A DNA stretch of 64,000 nt from Picocystis sp. L7 (taxonomy: Eukaryota > Chlorophyta > Picocystophyceae > Picocystales > Picocystaceae): positions 620,001 to 684,000 of the forward strand of contig QXJR01000007.1 of assembly GCA_020975725.1 (NCBI GenBank), read 5' to 3'. The position numbers and the translations under genes are program-made. A model generated the notes under the pieces. The model had not been told where the DNA came from. It made no database searches and saw only the letters and a program-made list of their open reading frames with translations. Shown piece after piece: positions 183 through 62,636 of this stretch. Every line of letters begins with the position of its first letter. Within the stretch, counting starts at the first letter, position 1.

Positions 183-2318
183 ATGGCCCACGCATGCCTG
201 AAGCACGGTGCCGTGCGCCTGCAAGGCAAAAACGCCGGGATGCGCGCCAAGGCGGTCCGTCCCGTGCGCGCACAAGCGCAGCCGAAGGTGAGCGACACGT
301 CGTGCTTGCATCGAAAAAGGACGCGTTTTCGCATCGAAAGGGTCGCTGACGAAGCTTCTCGCCTTGGGAAAACGCAGCAGGACGTCGTCGTGGCGCAGGA
401 ACGAAGGCAGATGCTGAAAGGAGCGGCCTTGGCGGCAGCCACGGCCTGGACTGGTCTGGTGGGATCGGCACAAGCTGCGGACGAACAAGTGGCCTCCTCG
501 CGCATGTCGTATTCGAGGTTCCTTGAGTACCTGGACATGGGACGGGTGAAGAAGGTGGACCTGTACGAAAACGGAACCATTGCCATCGTCGAAGCCGTCA
601 GCCCAGAACTCGGAAACCGCGTCCAGAGGGTGCGCGTTCAACTCCCAGGCACTTCCGCAGAGCTGCTGCAGAAGTTCCGCAACAAAGGAGTGGACTTTGC
701 CGCGCACACCCAGCAGGAGGACGGAGGTGCTGTCTTCCTGAACCTCCTCGGAAACCTGGCCTTCCCTTTGCTCCTTGTGGGAGGTCTGTTCCTGCTCTCG
801 AGGAGGAACCAAGGAGGCATGGGCGGACCGGGAGGTCCAGGCAACCCGCTCTCCTTTGGAAAGTCCAAGGCAAAGTTCCAGATGGAGCCCAACACCGGCA
901 TCACTTTCTCGGACGTCGCCGGTGTGGATGAGGCCAAGCAAGACTTCATGGAGGTAGTGGAATTTCTCAAGCGTCCGGAACGCTTCACCGCGGTCGGAGC
1001 CAGAATCCCCAAAGGTGTCCTGCTTGTAGGACCACCCGGTACGGGTAAGACCTTGCTCGCCAAGGCCATCGCTGGTGAGGCTGGTGTGCCATTCTTCAGC
1101 ATCAGCGGATCAGAATTCGTGGAGATGTTCGTGGGCGTTGGTGCATCCCGCGTGCGTGATCTTTTTAAGAAGGCAAAGGAGAACGCGCCTTGTATTGTTT
1201 TCATTGATGAGATTGATGCAGTGGGTAGATCCCGCGGTGCTGGTGTGGGCGGCGGAAACGACGAGAGGGAACAAACCCTGAACCAGCTCCTTACGGAGAT
1301 GGATGGATTCGAGGGGAACACCGGAATCATTGTGGTCGCCGCTACCAACCGTGTCGACATCTTGGATAGTGCGCTGTTGAGGCCAGGTCGCTTTGACAGG
1401 CAGGTCACCGTGGACGTACCGGATATCAGGGGGCGCAAAGAGATTCTCTCTGTGCACGCGCGCAACAAAAAGTTCGAGGAGGGCGTAGGTGTGGAGACCA
1501 TTGCCATGCGTACACCAGGGTTCAGCGGAGCGGACTTGGCCAACCTTCTGAACGAAGCTGCCATTCTCGCCGGCCGCCGTAACAAGGAGGCCATTGGACA
1601 GAAGGAGATTGATGACAGTGTAGACAGGATCGTTGCTGGGATGGAGGGCACACCCATGACGGATGGCAAGTCAAAGAGCTTGGTCGCCTATCATGAAGTT
1701 GGGCACGCTATCTGTGGTACCTTGACCAGTGGGCATGATCCTGTGCAGAAGGTTACTTTGATTCCACGTGGACAGGCGCGTGGGCTCACTTGGTTCATCC
1801 CGGGCGAAGACCCATCACTGGTCAGCAAGCAGCAGATCTTTGCTCGCATTGTTGGTGCACTCGGGGGCAGGGCTGCAGAGGAGGTGATCTTCGGGGAAGC
1901 TGAGGTCACAACAGGGGCTTCGAGTGACCTCATGCAGGTATCAAACATGGCCAAGCAGATGGTCACCAACTTTGGCATGAGTGACATCGGACCTTGGAGC
2001 CTGCAAGACCCTTCCTCTCAAGGCGGGGACATGATCATGAGGATGATGGCCAGGAACCGGATGAGTGAGAAGCTAGCCAATGACATTGACACCGCGGTAA
2101 AAACAATAGCTGCTGATGCATATGAGCTGGCCTTGAAGCATATTAGCGACAACAGGGAAGCCATTGATGAGATTGTGGAAATCCTAATCGAGAAGGAGAC
2201 CATTGATGGGGATGAGTTTAGGAGCATTTTGAGCAAGTACACCCCCATCCCAGAGGATCATCTGCAGGCAGTTGCGGCACAGAAGGAAGGAGTGGCTGGC
2301 CAGTTGGCCAATGCATAA
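183..2318 (+). CDS. FTSH2: FtsH2/VAR2-type thylakoid ATP-dependent zinc metalloprotease
   Basis: This is a membrane-anchored AAA+ protease that degrades damaged photosystem II D1 and other thylakoid proteins as part of a hexamer. The first ATG of the frame gives a 711-residue product with a basic transit peptide. A twin-arginine hydrophobic stretch ([17 protein letters not shown]) ends at AQA-ADE and fits a lumen-transfer signal. The lumenal region ([18 protein letters not shown]) is followed by one transmembrane segment ([14 protein letters not shown]), Walker A GPPGTGKT near residue 282, Walker [13 protein letters not shown] near 340, a second region of homology, and the zinc protease motif HEVGH near 504. 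I recall very high similarity to Arabidopsis FTSH2/FTSH8 (type B). A probable intron in the transit peptide is listed separately; removing it keeps the frame. Family assignment is secure; the exact N-terminus is inferred. Confidence 0.96.
288..377 (+). other. Probable 90-bp frame-preserving intron in the FtsH transit peptide
   Basis: GTGAGC follows AAG at a codon boundary, CTGAC lies at 346-350, and CAG ends at 377 (a second CAG ends at 380). The size, donor and branch motif match every other intron resolved here. The length is a multiple of three with no stop, so the frame stays open if it is retained, adding about 30 residues that do not look like a transit peptide. cDNA would settle it. 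Confidence 0.6.
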
Positions 2319-2372: not shown

Positions 2373-3855
2373 CTAGGTAGTTTCAGTCCTCCTCCGTTTG
2401 TTCACATTTTCAAGTTCAACACCCGCAGCTTGGCTGTGATCTTCATGTACGTCCGGTGACGGAGGTATAGCTGGTGGGAGCGCATGCGATGTAAACTCAT
2501 AGTTTAGGCCACCATCGTCCCCAGCAAAGAGGTTGCTAGTTATGGTACTGCCATGGACCGTGTATTCTACGGAGGATGCATGCGCACCCAGTTGCTCTAC
2601 GAAACGGACTTGTACACGAAAGACCAACACCTCGTGCACGTAAACTTTCCTGTGGAAGGTGGCGATCAGCGGCACTTTACTCGTCGTCTCAATGACCTGC
2701 ACTTCTCCCTCGAGTTCCACACGTAAGGATTGGACAAAGGGCAGCGGACATTTGGGATGATGGATGCTGCTGAAGATCAGTTTGATGCCGGACCCTCGTA
2801 CGCCAAGGTCGAACGGCTTGTGATGGGCAGAGGTAGGGAAAAGCACGTGGTACGAGATGCGTGCCTTGTCCACGCGTATGTAAGGTGGCACCTTCACTTC
2901 CATGTGCTTCAAGAGCAGGGCCATCACTTGGTCGCATTTGGCGTGGATGACTAGTTCCGCTCTATGATCTTTGGGTGTCTCCTGCAGGTTCACGATCACC
3001 AGCTTTCCTCCATGGGATTGCACTTGCTCCGGCAGATCACAGACGGGAGTGATTCGAAGGCTAGTTCCCATGCAGACTACCAGGTCCGCTCGCTCGGTGT
3101 GTTGAATGGTCGCGTCCAATTCGTCTTCCGGCAGTGGGCTTTCCCAATCCAGGATGTTGTCGGTGAGTCTCCCCCCGCATGCATCACATTTCCTCCGTGT
3201 GTATTTGAATCCCACCGTCTTCATCTCGAAATCCCTCAGGTGCACTTTTTTGCATTCTTCGCATCGCTCGGAGAAGCAGTTGCCGTGCAATTCGGCCAGC
3301 TTCTCCCTGTCCAAGCCCGTCCTGGCGTGTATGCCTGCACGTGCACGTTCCACTCTCGTGTCAGCGTCTGCGTCCACGCCATCGCCTTGGCCTTCGCGCC
3401 TGCTCTCTCACCGTCCACGTTCTGCGAGGCCACGTAATCCACGCGTTTCATGCGCACGAGTTGTGCGATGGCGCGGTGCGTCAAGCTCGGCGTCGCGAAT
3501 CCGAATCCGACGTCGCAGGTCGGCATGGCCTCGCCACGTCGCTGTTTGGTCCAGATGCCTTGTGGACCGCGGAAGTCTGGGATGCCGCACGACGTGGACA
3601 CGCCCGCTCTTCTCCCACACGCGTCCAGTCAGCCATCGCCATCGCCATCGCCACGGCCATGGGCATTCCTGGTGCGCATCCTTCGTGCGCGTCTCACCCG
3701 GTGTACACCACGACGTGTTGTGCGTCGGACCACCATCGTGCCAGTGTTTCGCACTTGCTGGACCAGCTTTCCGCGTCCTCGTGCACCTCCGGCTGTCCCA
3801 GCGCACCGCCCAGGTCCTTCCGATGCGCCAAGCGATGCGCATAGCTCAGCGACAT
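2373..3855 (-). CDS. SIRT6: SIRT6-type NAD-dependent protein deacylase, three exons
   Basis: The coding sequence is join(3855..3698, 3608..3412, 3334..2373) on the minus strand, giving 438 residues. The reading frame joins perfectly across two introns (89 and 77 bp), each with a GTGAG donor and a GCTGAC branch motif. Class IV sirtuin signatures appear in order: a GAGVSTSCGIPDFRGP NAD-binding loop split by intron 1, SQNVDG split by intron 2, catalytic His in KLAELHGNCF, zinc ligands C-x2-C and C-x2-C flanking the small domain, ILDWESPLP, GTSLRI, and VIVNLQ. SIRT6 relatives are nuclear chromatin deacylases. The C-terminal roughly 200 residues, after the Rossmann domain, resemble the long tail of SIRT6/7-like proteins and end in a basic KRRR patch that could act as a nuclear signal. 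The gene starts only about 30 bp from a large TG-rich array. Confidence 0.92.
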
Positions 3856-3881
3856 GTGGTCGAATGGCCACCAACGAAGGG

Positions 3882-4032
3882 ACGTGTGTGTGTATGTGTC
3901 TATGTGTATGTGTCTATGTGTATGCGTATGTGTCTATGTGTATGTGTCTATGTGTATGCGTATGTGTCTATGTGTATGCGTATGTGTATGTGTGTATGTG
4001 TCTATGTGTATGCGTATGTGTCTATGTGTCTA

Positions 4033-4069
<37 letters not shown>

Positions 4070-4288
4070 GTTGTCTATGTGTATGTGTCTATGTGTATGT
4101 GTATGTGTATGTGTCTATGTGTATGTGTCTATGTGTATGTGTATGTGTATGTGTATGTGTCTATGTGTATGTGTCTATGTATGTGTCTATGTGTATGTGT
4201 CTATGTGTATGTGTATGTGTATGTGTCTATGTGTATGTGTCTATGTGTATGTGTCTATGTGTATGTGTATGTGTATGTGTATGTGAGT
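3882..4288 (+). repeat. TG-rich hexamer microsatellite (TGTGTA / TGTCTA), about 400 bp
   Basis: Alternating six-base units TATGTG, TCTATG and TATGCG run without interruption. All plus frames stay open and encode CVCVYVYV-type strings, which are artefacts. The array abuts the 5' end of the SIRT6-like gene, beginning about 30 bp beyond its ATG on the opposite strand. Confidence 0.95.
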
Positions 4289-6174: not shown

Positions 6175-6977
6175 TGAATGGACGAACGCACGTTCCTTTC
6201 GACGTGCGTTTCGATGCCTGTGGAAGCGGGCCGAACGCACCGAGAACGTGCACCGTCCCACAGCACGAACCAGGAAGGACGACAGACATCAGGATCCAAC
6301 CAATGGAAACACCGTCGTCGAAACCTTCCGGTGTTGAAGACCCGTTCGAGGCAAAGTCTGCGTCGACTTCGGATCCCCAAAGCTTCGGTATCGCGCAAAA
6401 CGCAGGCAATGCTGCTTCAGAAGCGTAGGCAAGTTCGCCCGCTGCCTCGCTCGGAATGGGAGTTCGATGCAAGCGGCGCCTGCCTCTTGATGAGCCCGGA
6501 CCTGCTTGCAGCTCAAGAGCTTGGTGGATGCATCAACTGGCTCTTTCATCCTCCAAGAGGGGAATCGGATATCCAAGGGTGGACGCGGCAGGACAGGAAT
6601 GCCACGACCTGGGTCCAGCGGTTGACCACAAAGCAATAACAAACAGAGATGGCCGAAACGTGCATTGGGTTTTTCTAAGGACGAGGTGTTTCTTCTGGAA
6701 CTAACAACGCATCAAACAACAGAAGATATGATGCACTCCGCTGGCGTTCCCACAATCATTGGGGTGGTTGCTGCGCAAGGAAGCGACCAACAACGGGGTG
6801 CGTTCCGGTCCATCCAACTTGGCATTTTTGATTAACGGAAGCACTCCATGCGGTAGGAGTGTACCGAACATGCAAGAGTACCACTTTGGGAAGCGTAGGA
6901 ATATACATTTACAGAACCATTCAAATTCGCCGGCGATCACGCCAAGGGGATGCTGATCCTGGTGTGAAACGCCTGCT
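6175..6977. other. Convergent intergenic region, no gene recognised
   Basis: It lies between the ends of the plus-strand cytochrome b5 gene and the minus-strand glutathione peroxidase gene. No frame has recognisable content. It should contain both 3' UTRs and polyadenylation sites; the GPx side begins with the SECIS-like hairpin. Confidence 0.6.
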
Positions 6978-7050
6978 CCGTTTCAGAAGTAGCCGGTGCC
7001 TGTTTCTTCAGGTGTAGCTTTCCGAGACAACTTCGTCATGTAGTGAACGG
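6978..7050 (-). promoter_or_regulatory. SECIS-like element (type 2) in the 3' UTR of the GPx gene
   Basis: About 40 nt downstream of the GPx stop, the minus strand folds by eye as follows. Helix I is CCGTT (7050-7046) with AACGG (6982-6978). Next comes an internal loop, then the non-Watson-Crick core ATGA (7039-7036) opposite GA (6984-6983). Helix II is GAAGTTGTC (7034-7026) with GGCTACTTC, allowing one U-U mismatch and one G-U pair. An AAA bulge sits 14 nt above the core, and a mini-stem CCTG/CAGG closes the apical loop. This is the order expected of a eukaryotic type 2 SECIS, which recruits SBP2 and eEFSec to decode UGA as selenocysteine. It was found by hand and not scored by software. Confidence 0.8.
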
Positions 7051-7088
7051 CATCCGCTTGCTAGCGGTTTGCATCTGATTGCATCTCC

Positions 7089-7772
7089 TTACTCGGCCCC
7101 GAGATAGGCCCGTTGTTTCTGCGGCAAGCTTTTGCCTTCCAGGACTGCTTTCAGGTCCTCTTCAAGCCCTTGGGCCAGCGGTGCTCCTGGCTTGTACCTG
7201 CGGATGGGTTGTCCGTTACGATCTACCAGGAACTTGGTGTAGTTCCATTCGATCTCGGATCCTCCCGTTTTGGATTTGAGGAACCCATACACGGGCGACA
7301 TTTCCTTCGGTCCGTCCCACTGCGGCGTTGGTTTGTACTTGACGGCGACCTTGTCCATGACGGGAAATTCGATTCCAAACTTGCGCCAGGCCCATTCCCT
7401 TTCCTCTTGGCTGGATCCTGGCGCTTGTCCACCGAATTGGTTGGCAGGGAAGGCCAGCATCTCGAAGCCTTGTTCGTGGTATTTCTCGTACAGCATCCTA
7501 AGTTCTGGATAGTTGGCGTTCTGCAGCGGTCATTCGCTCGCCACGTTCATCACCAGCACCGCTTTTCCACGCAGTCGTTCGAGCGGATACGTTCGGCCGT
7601 ACTGCATCGCTTGGAAGTCGTACAGGCTGCTTTCTCCGCTGGCAACGGACGTGTTCGTCGCCAGCAGCGTCGGCGCCACCACCAAAAGCGCGGAGGCTTC
7701 CCTCCTCCTCCACTTCTGCGTCCTGGTGGTGGCGCAGGCCCGCGTGGTCGCGACGGCGCGCGCCTTCGGCAT
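7089..7772 (-). CDS. GPX: Selenocysteine-containing glutathione peroxidase (in-frame UGA at codon 81)
   Basis: This thiol peroxidase reduces H2O2 or lipid hydroperoxides. Reading UGA at 7532-7530 as Sec joins two conserved halves in one frame: LRGKAVLVMNVASE-U-PLQNANYPELRML. The product is 227 residues. The catalytic tetrad is complete: Sec81, Gln112 (FPANQFGG), Trp176 and Asn177 (IEWNYTKFLVD). The usual resolving Cys of plant non-Sec GPx (FPCNQF) is Ala110, and Pro replaces Gly after the active-site residue. The N-terminus starts MPKARAVATTR and continues into a twin-arginine hydrophobic segment (RRREASALLVVAPTLLA), suggesting plastid import and possibly the thylakoid lumen. A SECIS-like hairpin lies in the 3' UTR. 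A simple nonsense mutation is unlikely because both halves are intact and the stop falls exactly on the catalytic residue. Confidence 0.9.
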
Positions 7773-8479
7773 GGCGTCGACGGATTCGGCTCCGACACGT
7801 GTCCTCAGCTGAGAACAATCTCCTCTGTCCTGTGGACTGGATTGGATTGGATTGGATTCCCCTCCCATCCATGGACATGGAAGAGGATTGCAGGAGAAGG
7901 TACCCACAACACAATGGATGGATGGATGGACATGGAAGGAAGCAGACTGCATGGGAGAAAAGAAGGTGGCCAGCCAGGAGGAGCACCAAGCGCACGAGGA
8001 AGGGCGCAAGCAGTTGCCAAGTAGACATGAACCGGCTTCCCACGGGACCGTATGGCTTGCCTTGTTCCTGATGGTGAGGACGGCTTCGTGCCACGCAGGG
8101 ATCGGACTCGTCTGGTTGGAGGACATGGCCTTGCGGCGCCTTGGCAATTCGACTGTGTTTTGTTTCAAATCCAATCGATCCTGTGTTGGTGAAGGAGAAG
8201 CTTGCCCTCGTTGCAGGGCACAGGCGCCGTTCGCCTGAACCGCACGAGCACGAGAATCATTCCTTCTTTCATGCACCGCTGGTATTGTACAACGGACTCG
8301 AACATGCACCGCTTGTCCGTTTCTGTTTCGTCTATCTTCTTTTTTCTTCGGGAACGCGTTTTCGTTGACCTTCACGTGGCCACCTTCCTTTCATGGAAGG
8401 TTCCATGTCGACGACCGAGGCGTCCTTCTTCCCGCGCCTCGTCCGTCCTTTCCTTCGTCCCTCGGCATCGTTCCGTGCA
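7773..8479. other. Spacer upstream of the GPx gene with short GATTG and ATGG repeats
   Basis: It contains four GATTG units at about 7839-7857 and an ATGG run near 7916-7931. The long frame read through this region on the minus strand is not protein-like before the GPx start. It is presumed to hold the GPx promoter. Confidence 0.55.
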
Positions 8480-24517: not shown

Positions 24518-26203
24518 TCATGCAGCTGACCCACAAACAGGTTGTCTGGTGGTTCTGTTCAACACCTGGCATCTGCAAGCGTTATCTCCGTGCTTGAATC
24601 CGTTTGCAGTGCAGCATCTGTGCAGGTTGGCACCCTCCCAGTTCCAGATGGTGCTGGAACTGGAAAACTTTCCGTTTGGGTCAAGTTCATGGACCGCACA
24701 GCCAAAATCACACCAGCTCTCAGGATACTCCCGGCTACCGTCCCAACATCCTTCTTCGGGCCAACCAGCTTTGCCCCAATGGATACGTGATCCCATGCAT
24801 CTGTCACTATTTCGAAGGTAATGAATGGCAGCGAGGAAGCCTTGATTTCGCTCTCTCGACCGTTGGTTGAAGCTCACATAGTCCTCCAGATTGATGTACA
24901 CGACATGAGAATTGCTGCTGATGCTCAAGAGGGCATCCTCTCGGCGAACAATTCGTATCAGAGCTGGGGTGCGAAATGCATATCTTTGCTCATCCTCCTC
25001 TAAAAGATCAATGAGCCCAGTGAGACAACTTCCAGCTGTGGCAAACGGGATGCCCACTTCGTATTGGTCAAAAACTGCATCCTGGAATGAGAAGCCTCCG
25101 AAAAAGACACGGCTATTTATGAGCTCTTTTGACTGTGAAACAATGGCATCTCTCGTGGCAAAATTTTCACCACTTTGTAGTGGACCATTACGTAGCACAT
25201 TCTGTACAGCTGATGAGAACAAACGAACAAGCCACCTGGGCAAGGGTCCCACCGCCCAAAAAGATCGATTTGGTCTTGGGGGATTCCAGTTTGACACTAT
25301 CTCTTCAGTGTTTTTTAGGGAAGGTTCCGAGTCGTAATTGCTCGCATCACTCTTCCAGGCAGCAGAAAACGCTGGAGGATCCCTTTCTCGAATTGTAATT
25401 CGAAGAACCTCTTGAGATGGAATAGACCATAAGTACTGTGTTCCCTCCTGGAAGGATGGAGCAACCTTGCTGGTCAGCAAGTATTCTCGCTGTGCCTTCA
25501 ACAGGTCGGTGGCAAGTTGAGCATGGGAAATACTTTCGGTCGTTCTCTGGTAAATCTTTTGTGGCAAAATTCGAAATTTGAGGGATGTGATAATGCCAAG
25601 CCTCCCAACGCTCACCCTTGCTGCTTTCATCAAGAATGGGTGTTTCATGGAACTGAGTGAACTTCTGGTACCATTGGCCAGTATCAGTTCAAGTTCAAGG
25701 AGCACGTCTTCGCTTGACAGGGAACCATATTCAATGCTGCTCCCATGTGTGCCAGTAGCAACAGCACCACCAACGGTTTGATCGATGAACCAAGGAAAGG
25801 TCGGCAAGGAATATCCACCATTCGTTCCGTAGGACGCCAAGTAGTCAAGGAGGTATCTTATCTTGACCCAAGCACCAACAGTGACAGTCATACTCTTCTC
25901 ATCGACGCGTATTTCCTTGTCTTCCATCGCAGCAAGTGCAATATTGACAGATTTTAGGCTGTCATTGGACGGTGAAAGGTTTGCGCAGAACTGCTTGTCG
26001 TTCCAAGAGTGGCCAACGCCGTTGGGTTCGACATAGTTGTACTGTGTGACCACAGATTGTATGTCTTGTACATTTCGGGGCCTCGCAATCAAAGTTTGCT
26101 GGTTGCAACAATACTCGTTCTGCCAATTGCAGTTGTCATCAGGTGTTCTGGTGTAGACGTGAACGATCCATATTTCCAGGAGCAGCCCAAGTGGAAGCTT
26201 CAT
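24518..26203 (-). CDS. Aldonolactone (gulono/arabinono-lactone) oxidase-like flavoprotein, copy 1
   Basis: The 561-residue protein begins with a secretory signal (MKLPLGLLLEIWIVHVYT). A FAD-binding PCMH fold follows, with VGHSWNDKQFC and TVGGAVATGTHGSSIEYGSL, where the His in THGSS is the family's candidate FAD-attachment residue. The C-terminal ALO domain ends in SRIHWGKAGW and a Cys-rich tail (WCDFGC, RCC, CRC). Relatives oxidise L-gulono-, L-galactono- or D-arabinono-lactones to ascorbate or its analogues. The Cys-rich tail and signal suggest an ER-lumenal or extracellular enzyme, unlike mitochondrial GLDH. It is a tandem paralogue of the next gene, 289 bp apart on the same strand, and its stop lies 94 bp from the convergent exonuclease gene. 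Confidence 0.85.
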   Translation of the reverse strand: MKLPLGLLLEIWIVHVYTRTPDDNCNWQNEYCCNQQTLIARPRNVQDIQSVVTQYNYVEPNGVGHSWNDKQFCANLSPSNDSLKSVNIALAAMEDKEIRVDEKSMTVTVGAWVKIRYLLDYLASYGTNGGYSLPTFPWFIDQTVGGAVATGTHGSSIEYGSLSSEDVLLELELILANGTRSSLSSMKHPFLMKAARVSVGRLGIITSLKFRILPQKIYQRTTESISHAQLATDLLKAQREYLLTSKVAPSFQEGTQYLWSIPSQEVLRITIRERDPPAFSAAWKSDASNYDSEPSLKNTEEIVSNWNPPRPNRSFWAVGPLPRWLVRLFSSAVQNVLRNGPLQSGENFATRDAIVSQSKELINSRVFFGGFSFQDAVFDQYEVGIPFATAGSCLTGLIDLLEEDEQRYAFRTPALIRIVRREDALLSISSNSHVVYINLEDYVSFNQRSRERNQGFLAAIHYLRNSDRCMGSRIHWGKAGWPEEGCWDGSREYPESWCDFGCAVHELDPNGKFSSSSTIWNWEGANLHRCCTANGFKHGDNACRCQVLNRTTRQPVCGSAA

Positions 26204-26492
26204 AGCGCTGATGGATTCTGAGATGACCCATCGAATCCATCAGCTGTACACTAGGTCTACCTCGAGCCCGACCGAGTGGAGCCTGACTTCCTACCTCCTT
26301 CTCCTAACACATTCTAAGGCAATGTCGCCCTCTGGGGTAGGATTTTAGACGCTCCAACAGGGTGGAGGACGTGACAGCTACAGACCCTGCCGATGGACAA
26401 TTTCAAGGAATGCATCAACGGGAATGGACTGGCTGTACTTGGCCATGAACACGACATGTGGAGTAGAAATAGGAGCCTAGAAGGCATTGTTA

Positions 26493-28199
26493 CTAATAGG
26501 TTGAATATCCAGGGGGGGAACACTTTGGAAGGCTGGTGTCAAGGTCGAGAACCTGGCACATGCAGGTCTCGTCATCATGGTTGTACCCAGATTCAGAGCA
26601 ACAGCGGTCCAAATCAGAGCCTTCCCAGTCCCATACATCACTAGAGCTATGAAATTTACCATTTGGATCCAGCATGCGTACAGCACAGCCAAAGTCACAC
26701 CATGTATCTGGGTATTCTTTGCTGCCATCCCAGCAGCCTTCATCTGGCCAACCAGCCTTGCCCCAGTGCATACGACTACCCTTGCATTTCTCGTCACCTC
26801 GAAGGTACCGCATGACACTGTAGAATCCCTGGTTCCTCTCCCTGTCCCTCTGGTTGTAGAAGACATAGTCCTCGATGTTGATGTAGACAACTGGGTGATC
26901 ATTGCTAATGCTCAGAAGCCCTTCCTCTTGACTTACTGGCCGCACAATGCAGGGAGTACGAAACGCGTACCTCTCTTCACCATCTTCCATGAGGTCAACA
27001 AGGCCAGCAAGGCAATCGCCAGCCGTTTCAATGGGAATGCCCACCTCGTACTGGTCGTACACTGTTTCCTTGTACGGCGTGGGGCCAAAGATGTAGCTTG
27101 CTTCGTAAATTTCTTCCGGAAAAGTGATGATAGCATCTCTCGTCGGGAACGTACCATTTGGAAGTGCAACCCTTGACATGTAGTTTCTCCCAGTGTTGGC
27201 CATCGAACGCACCAATGGCTCGGACAAAGGACCAGCAAACATGACTGGTCTGAACGGACTTGGTTCTTCCCAGGAATCTACAGGAATCGGTTCACCCGAT
27301 TCTGATGCAGACACTGGCCCCGTCTCCGGAGAATAATCCGTAGGGATGGGTGAACCTTCGCCCTCGTCTTCGAAGGTAATTTCCAAGACCTGCTGGATCG
27401 CAGGATAGATGAGCCATTGTCCAGCATCCTTAAAAAGCTCTGGAGTTTCCCCTGTTTCTAAATACTCCTCTTGAGCTTGAAGCATCTTCCCTGCAAAGTC
27501 GCTCATACCAATCCTCTTGGTGGTTCTTGTGATTGCCCTTTGGGGTTTTATTTTGAACTTCAGGGACGTGATGATGCCTAGCCGGCCAACGCTTACTCTG
27601 GCTGCCTTCATGAGGAATGGATCTGTCTCACTACTTAAGGTGACCAATGTGCCATTTGAGAGAACCATGGTGATTTCTTTCAGAACCTCTTCCGACGAGA
27701 GCGAACCGTATTCCATGCTGCTCCCGTGCGTACCGGTGGCCACTGCACCGCCAATGCTTTGATCGATGAACCAAGAGATGGTTGGCAAGGCATAACCTGT
27801 TTCACCTTGTGATGCGAGATAGTCGATGAAATCGCGAGTCTTGACACCTGCTGACACTCTGACCTCCAGGTTCTCCTCATCGATGTCGATGTACTGATGC
27901 TCGACTGTGGATGTTGTGATCCCAACGGCGTTTTGGTTCACTTCCGGACAGAAGAAAGGCTGGTTCCAGGACATTCCAAGGCCACTTCCTTGGATGCTGT
28001 CGTACTCCTCCACCAGTGCCTGGATGTCTTCCACGCTCTTGGGCGAGGCAGTGAGCACTTCCGTCTCGCAGCAGTGCTCATTCTGCCAGTTGCACAGGTT
28101 TTCTGGAGGTGCAGCACGTGCTCCTGTGGCCAGAAACGCCGCCACAGCGCATGCAAAAGCCGCGCTGGAGCGTGGCATGGTCTTGCTTGGCAACGTCAT
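26493..28199 (-). CDS. Aldonolactone oxidase-like flavoprotein, copy 2
   Basis: The 568-residue tandem paralogue of copy 1 has the same order of parts. These are a hydrophobic signal (AAFACAVAAFLATGARA), CNWQNEHCCETE, a FAD fold with GSGLGMSWNQPFFCP and SIGGAVATGTHGSSMEYGSL, an ALO domain with SRMHWGKAGW, and a Cys-rich tail (WCDFGC, RCC, CMCQVL). It differs by a Pro/Ser/Glu-rich insert near residue 270. Conservation across the whole length, including all tail cysteines, indicates both copies are under selection. A substrate cannot be assigned; an ascorbate-type pathway is the leading family-based guess. Confidence 0.85.
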   Translation of the reverse strand: MTLPSKTMPRSSAAFACAVAAFLATGARAAPPENLCNWQNEHCCETEVLTASPKSVEDIQALVEEYDSIQGSGLGMSWNQPFFCPEVNQNAVGITTSTVEHQYIDIDEENLEVRVSAGVKTRDFIDYLASQGETGYALPTISWFIDQSIGGAVATGTHGSSMEYGSLSSEEVLKEITMVLSNGTLVTLSSETDPFLMKAARVSVGRLGIITSLKFKIKPQRAITRTTKRIGMSDFAGKMLQAQEEYLETGETPELFKDAGQWLIYPAIQQVLEITFEDEGEGSPIPTDYSPETGPVSASESGEPIPVDSWEEPSPFRPVMFAGPLSEPLVRSMANTGRNYMSRVALPNGTFPTRDAIITFPEEIYEASYIFGPTPYKETVYDQYEVGIPIETAGDCLAGLVDLMEDGEERYAFRTPCIVRPVSQEEGLLSISNDHPVVYINIEDYVFYNQRDRERNQGFYSVMRYLRGDEKCKGSRMHWGKAGWPDEGCWDGSKEYPDTWCDFGCAVRMLDPNGKFHSSSDVWDWEGSDLDRCCSESGYNHDDETCMCQVLDLDTSLPKCSPPGYSTY

Positions 28200-29018: not shown

Positions 29019-30356
29019 TCAAACGTAACCATACAAAGTGTTCCAAAGCAGCAGCAGCCCGAAAGCAACAAGGAAAAATGACTTGGACAGCGTCCACCAG
29101 TTATGAGGTAGGGGGCCCAGGGCGCTTTCCTGTTCTGGGGGAAGTGCAATACTCAAGCTGCGAACCATGGTGGGTTTAAGTGAGATCAATCCCGGACACA
29201 CAAAAATCATCAGTGCACCAGCAGTGCCACCCACTGCCTGGAAAACAGAGCCAAGCTTATCCACAGAAACTGCTGTGGACAAGGATACCAAGAAAAGGAA
29301 AAGCGTCTGCAAAACATGTCTGGATTTGGAGGTAGGGTCATTCTTCTTGTTGAAGATCCAGCAATAGAGATGGTTAAGTGCGTGTTTGCCGGGGTTGATG
29401 TTCACTGGGAAAGAAATAATGCCGACAAGCCCCATTCCACCCATTGCTATGTTGGCCATCACGTCATCTCGAGGGTAGTTCAGAAGGATGTTGCTCATGG
29501 TAGAGCTCCCGAATTCAATGTAGCCAAAAGATCCCACAACGCAGTAGCTAACCAACACCAGAGACATACTGATGGCACATATGATGGACATGAGCCTGCA
29601 CTTTTCCCTGAGGCCAAGCTTTACTCGGCTAGGCTTCTTGAAAGGGTTCAGGGAGGCATCGTCGCGTAGCTCTGAAGACACAATGGGGCCTTGAACGTGG
29701 CATTGAAACGCAAACACAATGATCGGTATGGCTTTCCATGCATGGTCAAAATCTACGAGTTTGATGTGTCCCAGTCCTTTTTCTTTGTGGAGCTCAGGAA
29801 TCGCGTGAGTGGTCACCAGTACCCCGAGGTAGATGAGGATGTACAGGGTCAGTGAACTCAGCAACGACAACGCCCCCAGTGACCTTGGCATGCTGAGCGG
29901 CAGGAGAATGGCCAGGCTGCTAGAGACCATCGCAAACGCTCTGGTTTTCAGAAACTCCCAAGGCAGATCTTGTAGCACCAGGAACCTTTCCATGGTCGTT
30001 CCCACGATGATCATGTAGGCGGTACAAGATCCCAGCTGGTACGTGAGGGTGATGGTGGCCAGCACCAGCGAGACTGGCTTTCCCAGGCACCTCTGCACCA
30101 CCTGCGAATATGTGTGGACTCTATACCTCAGTGCTGCTTGCACCAGGATCTGCAAAGTGGTGTACATGAGTCCTGCACAGAGGAAGGTAAGCACGAGTCC
30201 CAACACCAGTCCAGTGTCTCGGAATGCGTAGGGAAACGAGAGCACTCCAGCACCGATGGCGGCGTTCAGCATGGTAAACACCGATCCCCACGCCGTGCAT
30301 GCCTGGGCCGTCGAATGGGCGTGGAGGGAAGGCAGGAGCGGATCTTCTGCGGACAT
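29019..30356 (-). CDS. AVT6/SLC38-type amino-acid transporter, copy 1
   Basis: The 445-residue AAAP-family protein has about 11 membrane segments. Diagnostic parts are the TM1 motif SVFTMLNAAIGAGVLSFPYA, GSCTAYMIIVGTTMERF in TM4, and IVFAFQCHVQGPIVSSELRD. SFGYIEFGSSTMSNILLNYP precedes TM8, and SFPVNINPGKHALNHL lies in TM9. Plant AVT6 proteins export neutral and acidic amino acids from vacuoles; SLC38 members work at plasma or lysosomal membranes. The start is the first ATG of the frame (MSAEDPLLP), after an upstream in-frame GTG was discounted. A tandem paralogue lies about 350 bp upstream. Confidence 0.9.
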   Translation of the reverse strand: MSAEDPLLPSLHAHSTAQACTAWGSVFTMLNAAIGAGVLSFPYAFRDTGLVLGLVLTFLCAGLMYTTLQILVQAALRYRVHTYSQVVQRCLGKPVSLVLATITLTYQLGSCTAYMIIVGTTMERFLVLQDLPWEFLKTRAFAMVSSSLAILLPLSMPRSLGALSLLSSLTLYILIYLGVLVTTHAIPELHKEKGLGHIKLVDFDHAWKAIPIIVFAFQCHVQGPIVSSELRDDASLNPFKKPSRVKLGLREKCRLMSIICAISMSLVLVSYCVVGSFGYIEFGSSTMSNILLNYPRDDVMANIAMGGMGLVGIISFPVNINPGKHALNHLYCWIFNKKNDPTSKSRHVLQTLFLFLVSLSTAVSVDKLGSVFQAVGGTAGALMIFVCPGLISLKPTMVRSLSIALPPEQESALGPLPHNWWTLSKSFFLVAFGLLLLWNTLYGYV

Positions 30357-30427
30357 GGCGGCGTCCACCACCACGACACGTGCGTCGTGGTGTGAAGGTT
30401 TGGGGGTTGCGAGCCACTGAACCCTCG

Positions 30428-30437
30428 ATCACGTGAT
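30428..30437. promoter_or_regulatory. ATCACGTGAT palindrome upstream of AVT copy 1
   Basis: The 10-bp G-box/E-box palindrome lies about 70 bp upstream of the ATG at 30356. The identical palindrome is found upstream of the paralogue. Proteins of bHLH or bZIP type bind CACGTG cores; any role here is inferred. Confidence 0.45.
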
Positions 30438-30704
30438 TGGGGGGAACCGGACCTTCGACCCAAACCGTATCGGGTCGGATTGGAAACCGTGCTGGTTTCG
30501 AAAGGGAAGGTGGAATCCATGTCAGGGAATCGCATAGGGAGGGATCACAGGTGTACCCGATGGATTGGATACTCCCCAATGCCATCCAATCGGAGGAAAG
30601 GTAGAGAAGAGGTGTAGCGTGCACAAATAGTAACAAGGTGTGCATTCCACGAGAAGGAATGGCAGGAGCTCGCAAGGAGGTACGGTGCCTCCTTGGACGG
30701 GGCA

Positions 30705-32024
30705 TCAGAGGTGGGTCCAAAGGGTGTGACCGAACATGAACAAACCAATGAGCATGAAAACTGTAGCCTTGAGCCTTGTTCCTATCCGCGACATTTCTGG
30801 TGCTGTCTCTCCCTCTAACAGGGGTATGTATTCTGTCCTCTCCTGATAGGTGGAAGTCATGGTCATGAAGGAGGGACACATAAAAGCTAGCAGAGCACCT
30901 GCACTGCCACCGATGATTTCAAAGACTGTTCCCAAATCCTTCACCGAAAGTGCAACAAAAAGAGAAACAAAGAAAAGAAAGAGTGTCTGTGCCAAGTGCC
31001 GATTTGTGGTCAGCGGATCGATCGGCCACTTCATGATGGTGCAGATGATGTGGTCCAATGCTCCCTTGCCTGGATTTATGTTGATGGGGAAGGAAGAGAG
31101 CGATACCACGGCTATGGCCACACGACACAGGTTCATCAGGATGTCGGTCTCTGGGTAGTTCTTCAGGATGTTGCTTTCTGTCAAAGGGCCGAAGCTGATA
31201 TACCCAAATTCTCCTATCAGTGCGTAGCCGATCATCACTACGCTCGAACTGATTGCATTGATCTTGGCCATCATTTTGATGCGGGCTCTTGTGCTCAACC
31301 TTTCCTCTTCACTTTTCTTTTTGAAGAAGCTTGTTTCATCTGATAGCTCGGCAGCAACAGTTGGAGCCTGGACATGACACATGAAAGCAAATACCATCAC
31401 TGGTATGACATTGACAAGGTCATCCAGGCTCACCAGCTTGATCTTGCTCATTTCCCGATGGTCGAAGAGGCTGGGGACACCTCGGATCATGATTGCTACG
31501 CACATGTAGATCAAGGAGAAGGAGGAAAGCGAGCTGACACTAGCTACAGCTCCCATGGTTTTAGGGAGGCTCAGAGGTAGGAGTACTAGCAAGCTCGATG
31601 CCGCGATGGCAAACCGCCTACCGGTCAAGAAACTTCCGGAAGCGCCGTAGACCGATGCGATGGTTTCGACTGTTCCTCCCACGATCATCATGTATGCTAT
31701 GCATGCACCGAGCTGATTGAGCAGCAAGAAAAGGGACACTACCAAGGAGAAGGGCTTTCCCAAGGTGTTCTCGGCCAGCTGAGAGTATGTCGTACTGTTC
31801 GTACGGATGGTGGCTTTCGTGAGGACGTTGACGGTGGAAACGGTCAAGACGGCAAAGGTCAACGTCAAGGCGGCTCCAAGGACGACTCCAGTCTTGCTGA
31901 ATGCATATGGAAAGGATACCACACCTGCTCCCACTGCCGCATTCACGAGCGTGAACACCGAACCGACGGCAGTTCCTTCCGCCTTGATTCCATTTCTCAC
32001 CACCACGTGTGGTGTTTCGGCCAT
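30705..32024 (-). CDS. AVT6/SLC38-type amino-acid transporter, copy 2
   Basis: The 439-residue tandem paralogue has the same membrane layout. It contains SVFTLVNAAVGAGVVSFPYA in TM1, GACIAYMMIVGGTVETI, VFAFMCHVQAPTVAAELSD, FGYISFGPLTESNILKNYP and SFPININPGKGALDHI. It has an extra charged loop (FFKKKSEEERLSTRAR) where copy 1 has a shorter basic one. The start ATG (MAETPHVVV) lies just before the conserved region; upstream in-frame sequence has no ATG. Both copies share an ATCACGTGAT box, suggesting common regulation after duplication. Confidence 0.9.
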   Translation of the reverse strand: MAETPHVVVRNGIKAEGTAVGSVFTLVNAAVGAGVVSFPYAFSKTGVVLGAALTLTFAVLTVSTVNVLTKATIRTNSTTYSQLAENTLGKPFSLVVSLFLLLNQLGACIAYMMIVGGTVETIASVYGASGSFLTGRRFAIAASSLLVLLPLSLPKTMGAVASVSSLSSFSLIYMCVAIMIRGVPSLFDHREMSKIKLVSLDDLVNVIPVMVFAFMCHVQAPTVAAELSDETSFFKKKSEEERLSTRARIKMMAKINAISSSVVMIGYALIGEFGYISFGPLTESNILKNYPETDILMNLCRVAIAVVSLSSFPININPGKGALDHIICTIMKWPIDPLTTNRHLAQTLFLFFVSLFVALSVKDLGTVFEIIGGSAGALLAFMCPSFMTMTSTYQERTEYIPLLEGETAPEMSRIGTRLKATVFMLIGLFMFGHTLWTHL

Positions 32025-36590: not shown

Positions 36591-38040
36591 TCAAGCCTCT
36601 TTGAAAAACTTCAGGGTCTTGTCTGCCCCTCCAGTGATGAGCCGTGAACCAGAAGCATCAAAGGTAGCAGCATACACTGCACCTTCTGCAGATAGCGAAC
36701 CGGGCTGCAGAGGAACTTGGAGGTCCTGGAACTTGGTGCCACTTTCCCAGTCTCTAAACCAGAGCTGCCCATCATCTCCACCCGTGACCAGCACTCCATC
36801 CTCATTCATCGCTGCACTATGGATGATCCCCGGCTGCTCCGAGCCCATATCATGTAGGAAGATCCCCTCTGGTAGTAGGAACTTCTTTGCATCACCCGCT
36901 GAAAAGGAAGCAAAAGTCTGCTCCCTCTCTGGTTGGACCAGGGCACGGACGCCCTTCTTGTGGTGGGTGAGCGTGGTGATGCACTTCCTCGTGATGCGCA
37001 GATCCCACAATCTTACCGTGGAATCTTGGCTTCCGCTCACCACGTGGGGCGCACCCGCACGACCCAGCACCGCAGTAACTGCATCACTATGCCCAGACAG
37101 ACAGACAGTTTCTGTTCCTGTTCGCATGTCCCACACCCGAACAGCACTGTCTCTCCCGCCGCTCATCATGATGTCAATGTCAGGATGCAGCGCAACACAC
37201 CGGACCCCGCTCAGGTGCCCATGGAAGTTCAGTACAGACTTGTTTGCTTCCAGGTCCCATAGCTTGACATTTTTGTCCAACGAACTCGTGACCATATATG
37301 GCCTTCTACGAGATATTCTGATGCCGGTGACGGTGTCAATGTGGCCAGTAAGAGTCAAAAGCAATGCTCCCCGCGCAATGTCCCAAAGTTTGATTGTCCT
37401 GTCAACCGATCCACTCACCATGAACCGATTAGCAGGGTCGCATTCAAGTGCAGTCACCCAACCCACATGCCCAGCAACCACACGGTAGAGTCTCCAAGGA
37501 TCATGTTTTTTGACGGTGAAGGACCTCCTCCTTTTGGTTGCCGGTCGCACGAGCGAGTCTGGCCTCGCACCGCCAAAGAGGTTGGACCTGTTGGCTTCAT
37601 TTTCTACCCTTTTCGTGCTCGGAAGTGCAAGTGTTGTCGACGCATCGCCTCTGGTCTTGGGCGCTTGGTTCGCTTCTGTTGGGATGGGTGCCGACAGGAT
37701 GGCGTCTCGCCTCTTCTCGGCCGCTGCATGCGCATATCTCCGCCGGAACAACGCTCGGATCGACTCGACGTTGCAGATGGGATCGTACGAAGGTATTCTG
37801 ATTCGCACATTTGTTCGCAGGCGCGCAGGAACGCGCGCATCCCGTCCATTCTCGTCAGCATCCAACCTGGACCTTGCGCTCTTCCGTCGTCCTTTCGACC
37901 CACCTGTCTCCTTCCACGCCTTCCACCGCGTCTATCACGGCCTTTTCCACGCGCGAGGCGATCTCCTCGGCACCGGGAAGCTGTCCTTTGAAGTCCAAGT
38001 GCGCGTCTGTGGCCGCTCGAAGCGTCGCATCGCGCTCCAT
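36591..38040 (-). CDS. PRL1: PRL1/PLRG1 WD40 protein of the Prp19/NTC spliceosome complex
   Basis: The coding sequence is join(38040..37904, 37797..36591), 447 residues. Seven WD40 repeats begin at [20 protein letters not shown]. [14 protein letters not shown] PRL1 blocks follow: [86 protein letters not shown] and [10 protein letters not shown]. The 106-bp intron splits an Arg codon and has GTGGGT, CTGAC and CAG signals. The N-terminal region is shorter than in Arabidopsis PRL1, and the conserved C-terminal tail after the last repeat (ETHP..KP in plants and animals) is absent; the protein stops at TLKFFKEA. It is nuclear and acts in splicing and, in plants, sugar and stress signalling. Confidence 0.93.
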
Positions 38041-38077
38041 CCTCGCCTTCCTCGGCGGCTCGTGTCGACGAACCAGA

Positions 38078-38356
38078 CCCACTCGAAGGGGATGGTTCTC
38101 TCACAAATCCCACTCGAAGGGGATGGTACTCTCACCAATCCCACACGAATGGCATCCCTGTCTGACAAATCCCACACGAAGGGGATGGTTCTCTCACAAA
38201 TCCCACACGAAGGGGATGGTTCTCTCACCAATCCCACACGAAGGGGATGGTTCTCTCACAAATCCCACACGAAGGGGATGGTTCTCTCACCAATCCCACA
38301 CGAAGGGGATGGTTCTCACACCAATCCCACTCGAAGGGGATGGTTCTCACACCAAT
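38078..38356 (+). repeat. 31-bp minisatellite, nine copies
   Basis: The unit is CCCACACGAAGGGGATGGTT followed by CTCTCACAAAT. Copies alternate between endings ACAAAT and ACCAAT, hinting at a 62-bp higher-order unit; copy 3 is diverged. It fills the divergent promoter between PRL1 (ATG 38040) and the prolyl hydroxylase, starting 38 bp from the PRL1 ATG. Because 31 is not a multiple of three, all frames stay open and give spurious ORFs. Confidence 0.97.
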
Positions 38357-38803
38357 CCCAATCGGACGACTTGGACAGGAAAGGGTGCAGACCACCTTCG
38401 TGTGGTGTGCCGTGTCGACCTGGGCGAGCCCCCATCATCCCCTTCTTGACATGGATGGAACGGCCAACGAGCAGAGAAACACGCTCGAGCTGCCGTTGGA
38501 CCCCGGATTCGACCGACCATCTCCCTTTCAAGGATGGTCGATCCATCCGACTGTCTTGAGGGTTCAGAAGGACGTTCTCTTCCAATTGCAAGGAGAACCG
38601 AAGAATCTGGCTCGAAACCTTGGTCCGAAACATCGATATCTCGCCCACAAAGATATCGATATCTATGCTGGAACGATCGATACGGTGGGAATGGACCCGG
38701 AGGAGCCCTTCGGATCAGCCTGGGATCAAATCGAGGGAGATCTGAGAGACGATTCGGCTCACCGTCGGCTCCATTCGCGTTCGTCCGCGTGTCGGATGCC
38801 GCG

Positions 38804-60263: not shown

Positions 60264-62636
60264 TCAAGAGGCTTTGGCTGATGCAATTGCCTGTGAAGTT
60301 GCAGCAGCAATGGTGGCATCATTGGCATTGGGTAGGTAGTAGTACTTTCCACCAGCTGCTTTTGCAATTTCCTCTGCAAAACCAGTGGACACGAATTTGT
60401 TCTCTGTGTCAATGACAAGCAACTGCAGTCCTGCTAAGCCAACCTTCTTCGAAATGTCAAGAATTTCATCTCTAATCTGGTCTTGTGTGGGCTTCGGCGC
60501 ATCTGGTGCTATGGCATCTGGATCCCCGTTTGATTTGGCCAGACTGATGTTTGCACGGCCATCCGTGAGGCAAACAACCATGCAACGCCCAACTTCCCCG
60601 GCAGAAAGCGCATTCATTCCCACCCTCACTGCAGTGCTCAGACCATGGGCAAGAGGCGAACCTCCTCCACATGGCAGGCGGTCCAAACGATTCTTAGCCA
60701 TCGCAATCGACTTAGAGGGAGGCAGTAGAACCTCTGCCTTGTCACCACGAAAGGGAATCAGGCAAACCTGGTCACGAGATTGGTATGAGTCTGTCAATAA
60801 ACGTAGCGCGGCGCCCTTTGCACTTTGCATACGATTAAGAGCCATCGAACCAGATGCATCCACAAGAAAGATTACCAAAGCCCCAGCTTTGCGGGCAAGC
60901 TTCTTGCTGCGCATGTCTGATTTCTCGACATAAACTTTCCTCTCTGTCGTGGCACGAGATCGTCGAGATGCCTGATAAGGTGCAGCAGCACGCATAGTGG
61001 CATCTACAGCAAGTCTGGTCACCTTCCCCTTTGGCAACATGGGCTTGATGTACCTGCCCCTATCGTCACTAAAGATCAGGTTCTTGGACCTACCACTCCT
61101 GCCCTGATTGCGTTGCTGCATTTGAGCCAAGTACAACAGGTTTTCATCCATAACTACACCTTCCGAATCAAACACAAACTCTTCTGGAATTTGCTCGCTT
61201 TCGTCTTCCTTGTCTTCTTCCGTTTCATCTTCCTCCTCTTGCTCTTCCTCCTCCTCGTCTTCCTCTTGCTCTGTATCATCCATGTTGTCCTCTGGTGGTG
61301 GCGGAGGGGGAGGGGGTGGTTGGTCAGGCGGGGGGGGCGTCTATTTGAGTTGCTCGAGGTAAAATGACCAGTTCCACCGCCTTCTTCAGGTCTTCTGGGG
61401 TGACGCTGTCTCTCCCACCAAGCGCTGCATGTGCCATGGCCACTCGCGTAGCAAACAGCTCTGCCCGGTGGCCTTGTACCTGCCCTCGCAGACACTCATC
61501 AACAAGGTACTGGATTTGCTTGTCTCCAATTGTCACGTCTTTCAACCACTCGCGGGCAAGTACAACTTGCGTTTTCGTTGAGTCTGTTGCTTCCTCTGCA
61601 TCACCAAGAACTGTATCCCGAAAATCTTGAAATGAAGTTGCAATATCCACGGCACTAACACGGTCGTCGAACGACATAGCCATATCTGCAGAGAGGGTGA
61701 CTGAAATGCGATCGAGGAGATGTTCTCGAATTCCCCCTTCCTCAGGATTGTAAGTGGCAATCAGAAGCGGCCTGCATGGATGGGTGATTGAGAGGCCTTC
61801 TCTTTCAACGACATTGACGCCATCAGCAAGAATTGAAAGCAGCAAATTGGAGATCCCCTCGTCAAGAAGATTGATCTCGTCAATGTAGAGTACACCTCTG
61901 TGAGCTTCTGCCAGCAGTCCTGGTTGAAAGACAGTCTTTCCCTGCCTCATAGATTCTTCGATGTCTACAGTTCCTACCAATCTATCTTCCGTCACTCCAA
62001 GTGGAATCTGGACGAAAGGAGCAGGCTTCACTCTCGTGGGCACATCGTCGCCTTCCTGATAGTTCATTGAATCTGCAAGACCGGTCTCCCATTCATTCGG
62101 CCGCGTAGGATCCGCGTTGCAGTAGGATCCGTCCACGATCTCAATGGGCGGAAGCAGTGCATGCAGTCCACGGGCCATGACGGATTTGGCGGTTCCTCGC
62201 CTACCCGAAATGGCTACACCGCCCAATGTAGGATCCACCGCTCCGAGGAGCAGGGCCGTTTTGATGGCCTCCTGTCCAATCACCGCCGCGAGGGGAAAGG
62301 TGGTTCGCATCCTCACGTCTTCCACGGGCGTGAAGCCATCGCTCAAAGCACGTTCCACTTCTTGCGCTGTTTCGTCCGCAAGTATCACCATTCGTTTCAC
62401 ACCATCGTCCCATTGCATGTCAGCAAGCCGCTTCCATTGCCACTCCTTCCTCGCCATGCATCGTTTCCGGATCTCTTCCTCGACGCTCGTGCTGCGCTCC
62501 ATTTTCGACCAGGCTCACCTCTCCGGGCCGCTTCGGCGTCCGTTCCGGCTGCAGCACGCATGGGAGCACCTCCACGTCGCCTGCCACGCCCGGAGGCGGC
62601 TCGTGGCGCGCCCAAAACGCGTCCATGGCAGCGCAT
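60264..62636 (-). CDS. CHLD: Magnesium chelatase subunit ChlD, with a one-base shift in a C8 run
   Basis: This plastid AAA+/integrin-I subunit inserts Mg into protoporphyrin IX with ChlI and ChlH. Exon 1 (62636..62519) encodes a 39-residue Arg/Gly/Ala transit peptide; the 152-bp intron has GTGAGC, CTGAC and CAG. Exon 2 starts at 62366 with the AAA domain ([60 protein letters not shown]). A Pro-rich and acidic linker follows, then the von Willebrand A domain ([20 protein letters not shown] with the MIDAS DxSx[31 protein letters not shown]). At 61331-61338 a run of eight C (minus strand) puts the two halves out of frame by one base; with seven C the frame is continuous (739 residues). Both halves are fully conserved, so a sequencing or assembly error is likelier than a dead gene. 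Confidence 0.93.

Follow-up and report, generated by a model that had tools for sequence, protein, structure and literature searches.

Can a glutathione peroxidase (GPx) gene whose frame is interrupted by TGA at the catalytic codon encode a complete enzyme with selenocysteine (Sec) in its active site, or is such a gene decaying, misread or mistranscribed in the assembly? This question is raised by a locus on the minus strand of the 64-kb stretch of DNA analyzed here, which is referred to below as the window and has a GC content of about 54%. Two features define the problem:

7089..7772, minus strand: GPx coding frame of 227 codons ending in TAA at 7091-7089 (translation, Pfam and PDB matches)
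7530..7532, minus strand: in-frame TGA corresponding to residue 81, followed by the base C; proposed selenocysteine at the catalytic position (alignment to the Cys column)

We consider it very probable that the locus is the Sec-GPx gene of a green-lineage alga: UGA would specify selenocysteine at codon 81, and a hairpin in the 3' region would be the probable SECIS. This reading is based on the position of the TGA, the homology on both of its flanks, the presence of Ala at both other Cys columns of the family and the use of TGA as a stop in other window ORFs, as detailed below.

Translation of the minus-strand frame from 7772 to 7089 revealed a single TGA and no further internal stop. With the TGA read through, the frame matched the Pfam GSHPx family (PF00255) with an E value of 1.1e-23 and a score of 83.3 bits, above the curated cut-off of 27. 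The top PDB match was 2vup (E 3.2e-34, residues 42-212), accompanied by 2p5q (E 5.8e-34, residues 44-212), and both of these matches span the TGA. The initial annotation had placed a UGA exactly at the Cys/Sec position of a GPx and had described conserved GPx sequence in the same frame for 146 codons behind it, with Gln112, Trp176 and Asn177 intact. All of this was borne out: alignment to GPx families with the TGA read through puts residue 81 in the invariant Cys column of the aligned relatives with homology on both sides, 146 codons separate the TGA from the terminal TAA in an open frame in which the 2vup match extends to residue 212, and Q112, W176 and N177 are invariant in 24/24 rows of the alignment. 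The codon-usage score per codon was similar on the two sides of the TGA, with 0.19 for residues 49-80 before it and 0.18 after it, while the other frames after the TGA scored -0.11 and -0.13 (forward) and 0.04 (best reverse). The stops of 19 other window ORFs are followed by 0-113 open codons compared with the 146 behind the GPx TGA. Since 84 of the 1735 TGA triplets in the window are followed by at least 145 open codons, however, openness past the TGA is a weak argument by itself, and it is the homology that carries the argument.

A pseudogene or inactive allele, in which a Cys codon (TGC or TGT) has turned into TGA and the gene is decaying, is difficult to reconcile with a frame that contains no second internal stop and with homology that persists past the TGA. 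By simple arithmetic, a random nonsense change would land on the catalytic codon in only about 1 of 227 cases. Further evidence on both sides of this explanation, which we regard as very unlikely, comes from the Cys columns and from the 3' region discussed below.

Under the reading as a Sec-GPx the locus is a concrete case for re-annotation, because a mechanical ORF call breaks at the TGA and the active site is lost. The prediction that automated annotation would split the gene in this way was confirmed by the mechanical ORF list, in which it appears as the two pieces 8126-7530 and 7496-7089. The first of these extends beyond the start used here, as the frame stays open upstream of 7772 to an ATG at 8126; the codon-usage score of this upstream part is weak (0.03), and the ATG at 8126 is a possible alternative start of the GPx.

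To place residue 81 and the other Cys positions in a family context, bacterial and viral relatives were taken from profile scans (the best 80 of 510 confirmed bacterial loci and the best 80 of 114 viral loci), and 23 relatives hand-picked out of these 160 loci were aligned with the window GPx. One of the viral patterns includes Cys81 and the pattern common to both scans restricts position 110 to C or A, and therefore counts at these two positions are partly conditioned by the scans. Subject to this conditioning, the column of residue 81 is occupied by Cys in 80/80 bacterial loci (best 80 of 510), in 40/80 viral loci (best 80 of 114) and in 23/23 aligned relatives, and Ala at position 110 occurs together with a catalytic Cys in 6/80 bacterial and 1/80 viral loci, again among the best 80 of each. 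A stop codon at residue 81 was found in none of the 160 loci made up of the best 80 bacterial of 510 and the best 80 viral of 114, and thus no relative with TGA was recovered among them. A viral scan with the window GPx protein as the single query gave no match.

The window GPx carries Ala110 and Ala128 at two columns that are Cys in 23/23 aligned relatives. Among the 120 relatives that have the catalytic Cys, 118 also carry a Cys in the aligned interval 126-131 (80/80 bacterial and 38/40 viral), while the window GPx has none in this interval and its Trp129 aligns with Cys of 2vup and 2p5q. The only Cys of the window GPx is C13, which is located in the N-terminal extension. With Ala at both other Cys columns, Sec would thus be the sole Cys-like (redox) residue of the mature enzyme, a composition consistent with a long history as a Sec enzyme, which in this respect also argues against a decaying gene. 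As judged from the alignment, the missing resolving Cys is the Sec-type (GPX4-like) pattern rather than that of a Cys/Trx-type GPx.

Among the best 80 of 114 viral loci, the catalytic position is occupied by a residue other than Cys (F, Y, S, A or T) in 40, although an insertion leaves four of these assignments uncertain, and the resolving Cys is also missing in 37 of these 40 relatives. Several of the viral contigs with GPx relatives look like near copies of one another. From their sequences, these viral GPx-like proteins without both Cys may constitute a class that has possibly lost peroxidase chemistry. The existence of such relatives means that loss of the resolving Cys alone is no proof of Sec, as a catalytically dead GPx-like protein would fit this loss equally well.

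An error of sequencing or assembly would offer another explanation for the TGA, in which the true codon is TGC or TGT and the gene encodes an ordinary Cys-GPx. The window contains AAA and VWA frames (62502-60264, minus strand) of a gene which we take to be ChlD; this ChlD-like gene is split across two frames near a C run (61283-61324, minus strand) apparently through an indel introduced during sequencing or assembly, and this probable frameshift means that base errors are possible in the window. The ChlD event is an indel, whereas the GPx locus would require a base exchange in precisely the catalytic codon. In addition, the corrected protein would be a Cys-GPx without a resolving Cys, which is atypical given that 118 of the 120 relatives with catalytic Cys keep one. 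An error at this codon thus appears even less likely than decay of the gene.

How TGA is used elsewhere in the window bears on two further possibilities, namely that translation inserts a standard amino acid at the UGA and produces a protein without Sec, or that the organism has reassigned UGA. TGA terminates 13 of the 20 other Pfam-supported window ORFs, or 12 of 19 if one ORF that ends at a frameshift is excluded. Reassignment of UGA in the host code was rejected on the basis of this ordinary use of TGA as a stop. The UGA is followed by C, which in some organisms makes a leaky context and would favor readthrough; however, neither readthrough nor reassignment explains why the UGA coincides with the catalytic Cys column, and together they are given the lowest probability of the explanations considered here. 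ARAGORN returned 0 tRNAs in the 64-kb window, a program that reportedly missed the tRNA-Sec of Cyanidioschyzon merolae according to the accessible part of PMC2375036.

Other genes of the window include an exportin-7-like gene, a gene for a 2OG-oxygenase with a ShK domain, two tandem lactone-oxidase-like genes (FAD_binding_4 and ALO; 24518-28199, minus strand) and two tandem amino-acid transporter genes (29019-32024). A SIR2-like gene (2373-3900) appears by eye to be broken up by short introns and gave a weak Pfam SIR2 match of 21.7 bits against a cut-off of 24. Repeats were observed as a GTGTAT-type tandem array of about 400 bases (3884-4285) and as a 31-base unit repeated about nine times at 38078-38360 within the ORF 37684-38559.

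The region past the GPx stop was analyzed for a SECIS, and two features were recorded:

6982..7039, minus strand: SECIS-like hairpin, type-2-like, with ATGA, helix II, AAA bulge, CCTG/CAGG mini-stem and TGA (fold scans; no Rfam match)
6968..7054, minus strand: lower stem enclosing the SECIS-like hairpin, possible helix I (free and constrained folds; 10 or 11 pairs depending on the slice)

According to the initial annotation, a type 2 SECIS with a helix II of nine base pairs was present about 40 nt past the stop. The hairpin is indeed located just 3' of the TAA and contains an ATGA core closed by the TGA at 6985-6983, an AAA that begins 14 nt after the ATGA and a mini-stem formed by CCTG/CAGG. 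Its ATGA at 7039 was measured at 49 nt past the TAA, and helix II consists of 8 pairs (one of them G-U) and one U-U mismatch rather than nine clean pairs. Scoring with covariance models, which had been suggested as a check, did not recover the element: no Rfam SECIS match was obtained at E values up to 10 in slices of 3001 nt and 136 nt, in a search that was run without an algal SECIS as positive control. The sole Rfam match within the 3001-nt slice was to an unrelated family and stayed under its gathering score. This negative result of the Rfam SECIS search is the point that speaks for a pseudogene.

How often such a shape arises by chance was estimated in the window and in shuffled sequence. 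A forced-helix scan of both strands of the window yielded 15 SECIS-shaped structures at 11 ATGA sites, among which the GPx hairpin ranked 9th by energy, and a simple SECIS scorer placed it 13th of 149, tied with others at that score. Among 2000 shuffled versions of the 3' region, a SECIS-like shape was present in 26 (200 nt), 36 (300 nt) and 73 (660 nt), i.e. in about 1-4%, and a shape including the mini-stem in 18, 25 and 58, respectively; these chance figures are optimistic, because the criteria were fixed after the hairpin had been seen.

Folding energies of the 3' region were -29.4 kcal/mol for the free fold and -23.6 kcal/mol for the SECIS-constrained fold, which is 5.8 higher and includes a flanking hairpin, and the pair probability of helix II in the free ensemble was at most 0.0016. 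The available text of PMC2375036 gives SECISearch cut-offs of -12.6 kcal/mol for the whole element and -3.7 kcal/mol for its upper part. Keeping in mind that these cut-offs were set for another program, an explicit SECIS drawing with a helix I of 5 pairs reached -12.0, just short of -12.6, and the upper hairpin had an energy of -8.9 compared with the published -3.7. A constrained-fold scan with a minimum of 7 pairs required below the AA returned 54 candidates, and the GPx hairpin was not among them; the same type of scan with any NTGA core returned nothing in the 660 nt past the GPx stop. With laxer forced-helix limits, a TTGA-core structure was obtained in two versions (-13.2 and -12.8), located 167 nt downstream of the first TAA base. 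This structure was rejected as the SECIS, and the hairpin was preferred, since it has an ATGA core and is compact, even though its energy is higher (-8.9). Since the expected elements occur at the expected site, while no covariance-model match was obtained and a competing fold is more stable, the hairpin at 6982-7039 is suggestive of a SECIS, and its identity as such is likely but unproven. The motif TGTAA occurs within 500 nt of the stop in 7 of 21 window genes, including one copy 175 nt past the GPx stop; at this frequency it does not represent a clear polyadenylation signal in the window.

The remaining part of the reading frame concerns the destination of the protein:

7629..7772, minus strand: N-terminal extension, residues 1-48, possible bipartite plastid/thylakoid-lumen signal, holding C13 (motif reading)

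The extension is basic, with RRR at residues 22-24, a hydrophobic stretch at 26-38 (mean/peak 2.13) and SVASGE thereafter. The order RRR-EAS-ALLVVAPTLLA-TNTSVAS resembles the layout of a bipartite transit peptide for the Tat or Sec route into the lumen, in which a basic stroma part is combined with twin Arg, a hydrophobic core and small residues at the cleavage site. A similar layout is observed in the N-terminus of the FtsH protease encoded in the window (183-2318, plus strand), whose N-terminus is transit-like and includes a hydrophobic segment similar to a thylakoid signal; the protease presumably resembles plant FtsH2. In red algae and heterokonts, this thylakoid-type FtsH is a product of the plastid genome, and from this and the likeness to plant FtsH2 the window appears to derive from a green-lineage alga. 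C. merolae, a candidate on account of the GC content of about 54% and of its Sec machinery with no selenoprotein found, was rejected because of the apparent short introns of the SIR2-like gene and the presumably nuclear location of the thylakoid-type FtsH; eustigmatophytes and Porphyridium were discarded on the grounds of the FtsH as well.

On the basis of the extension, plastid targeting of the GPx is plausible and, from the motif alone, thylakoid-lumen targeting is possible. A more specific proposal, which we put forward tentatively and consider rather unlikely, is that of a lumenal cysteine-free Sec-GPx that would be imported by the twin-arginine route, would carry out selenium-based catalysis in the acidic lumen, a site of lipid hydroperoxide formation, and would be reduced by a thiol donor new to that compartment. 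The thylakoid lumen is usually thought to be poor in glutathione, and a lumenal GPx would raise the question of what reduces a Sec enzyme there. Within the accessible portions of the literature on the lumen or thylakoid and selenoproteins, no lumenal selenoprotein or Sec-peroxidase was recognized among the matches listed; if the GPx is lumenal, it would be the first selenoprotein in this compartment among these matches.

A structure model of the window GPx calculated from the 24-sequence alignment had a mean pLDDT of 76.1 and a pTM of 0.73, with low confidence for most of residues 1-28. The top five Foldseek matches were GPx structures (TM scores (target) of 0.88-0.90), and the list of closest folds, comprising 50 PDB chains, consists of GPx-type structures, some of them designed. 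The locus is best described as a putative nuclear gene of a green-lineage alga for a monomeric GPx of the phospholipid-hydroperoxide type, in which UGA at codon 81 would be read as Sec with the hairpin past the stop acting as SECIS. Its catalytic cycle would probably be of the animal GPX4 type rather than that of Cys-GPx, which is thioredoxin-type and involves an intramolecular disulfide. In the GPX4 cycle the selenol is converted to selenenic acid and then to a seleno-glutathione adduct, with external thiols as reductants. By analogy, the Sec selenol of the window GPx would reduce lipid hydroperoxides or H2O2, and the oxidized selenium would be reduced by external thiols, as expected for an enzyme without a resolving Cys. 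The protein would enter the plastid, perhaps the thylakoid lumen, where it would clear lipid hydroperoxides and H2O2.

Comparison with known systems places the window GPx between two types of enzyme. Poplar GPX5 (2p5q) and the T. brucei enzyme (2vup), both Cys-GPx, are its best matches in sequence as well as fold. Plant and trypanosome Cys-GPx work with two Cys, one catalytic and one resolving, and are reduced by thioredoxin-type donors; both Cys are present in 2p5q and 2vup, whereas the window GPx has TGA at the first position and Trp or Ala at the second. It also differs from the 23 aligned relatives by an insertion near residues 146-154. GPX4, on the other hand, is of the monomeric type, carries Sec and lacks a resolving Cys, and its human representative matched the window GPx with TM scores (target) of 0.83 (6elw) and 0.82 (6hn3) at identities of 36% and 34%, respectively. 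GPX4 contains the motif FPCNQF, where the window GPx has FPANQF.

Among green algae, the closest parallels are CrGPxA/GPX1 and CrGPxB/GPX2 of Chlamydomonas reinhardtii, two GPx with catalytic Sec that are listed as organellar in the accessible part of PMC3095285. A CrGPxB primer given there decodes by hand to DIEWNY, resembling EIEWNY of the window GPx, while FPCNQF is called fully conserved in the GPx set of that paper, unlike FPANQF of the window GPx. In contrast to the possible signal on the window GPx, no claim of a lumen signal was seen for the Chlamydomonas GPx in this part of the paper. Ostreococcus likewise possesses selenoprotein GPx, and a GPx gene in O. lucimarinus has one ATGA-type SECIS; nearly all Ostreococcus SECIS carry a G before the core, unlike the ATGA of the window hairpin, as far as the available text of PMC2375036 describes them. 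In the same text, C. merolae is reported to have the Sec machinery but no selenoprotein found. The initial annotation had regarded a plastid Sec-GPx as unusual. This holds with respect to O. tauri, where none of the 24 selenoproteins, which include five Sec-GPx, has a predicted chloroplast transit peptide according to the portion of PMC8834552 available, unlike the window GPx with its possible plastid signal, but does not hold with respect to the two organellar Sec-GPx of Chlamydomonas (PMC3095285). Of 36 algal genomes, more than half encode Sec-containing GPX, as stated in the accessible part of PMC7539508. Algal Sec-GPx are thus, within the accessible parts of these sources, already widespread with organellar cases reported, and the window GPx adds a further member to them.
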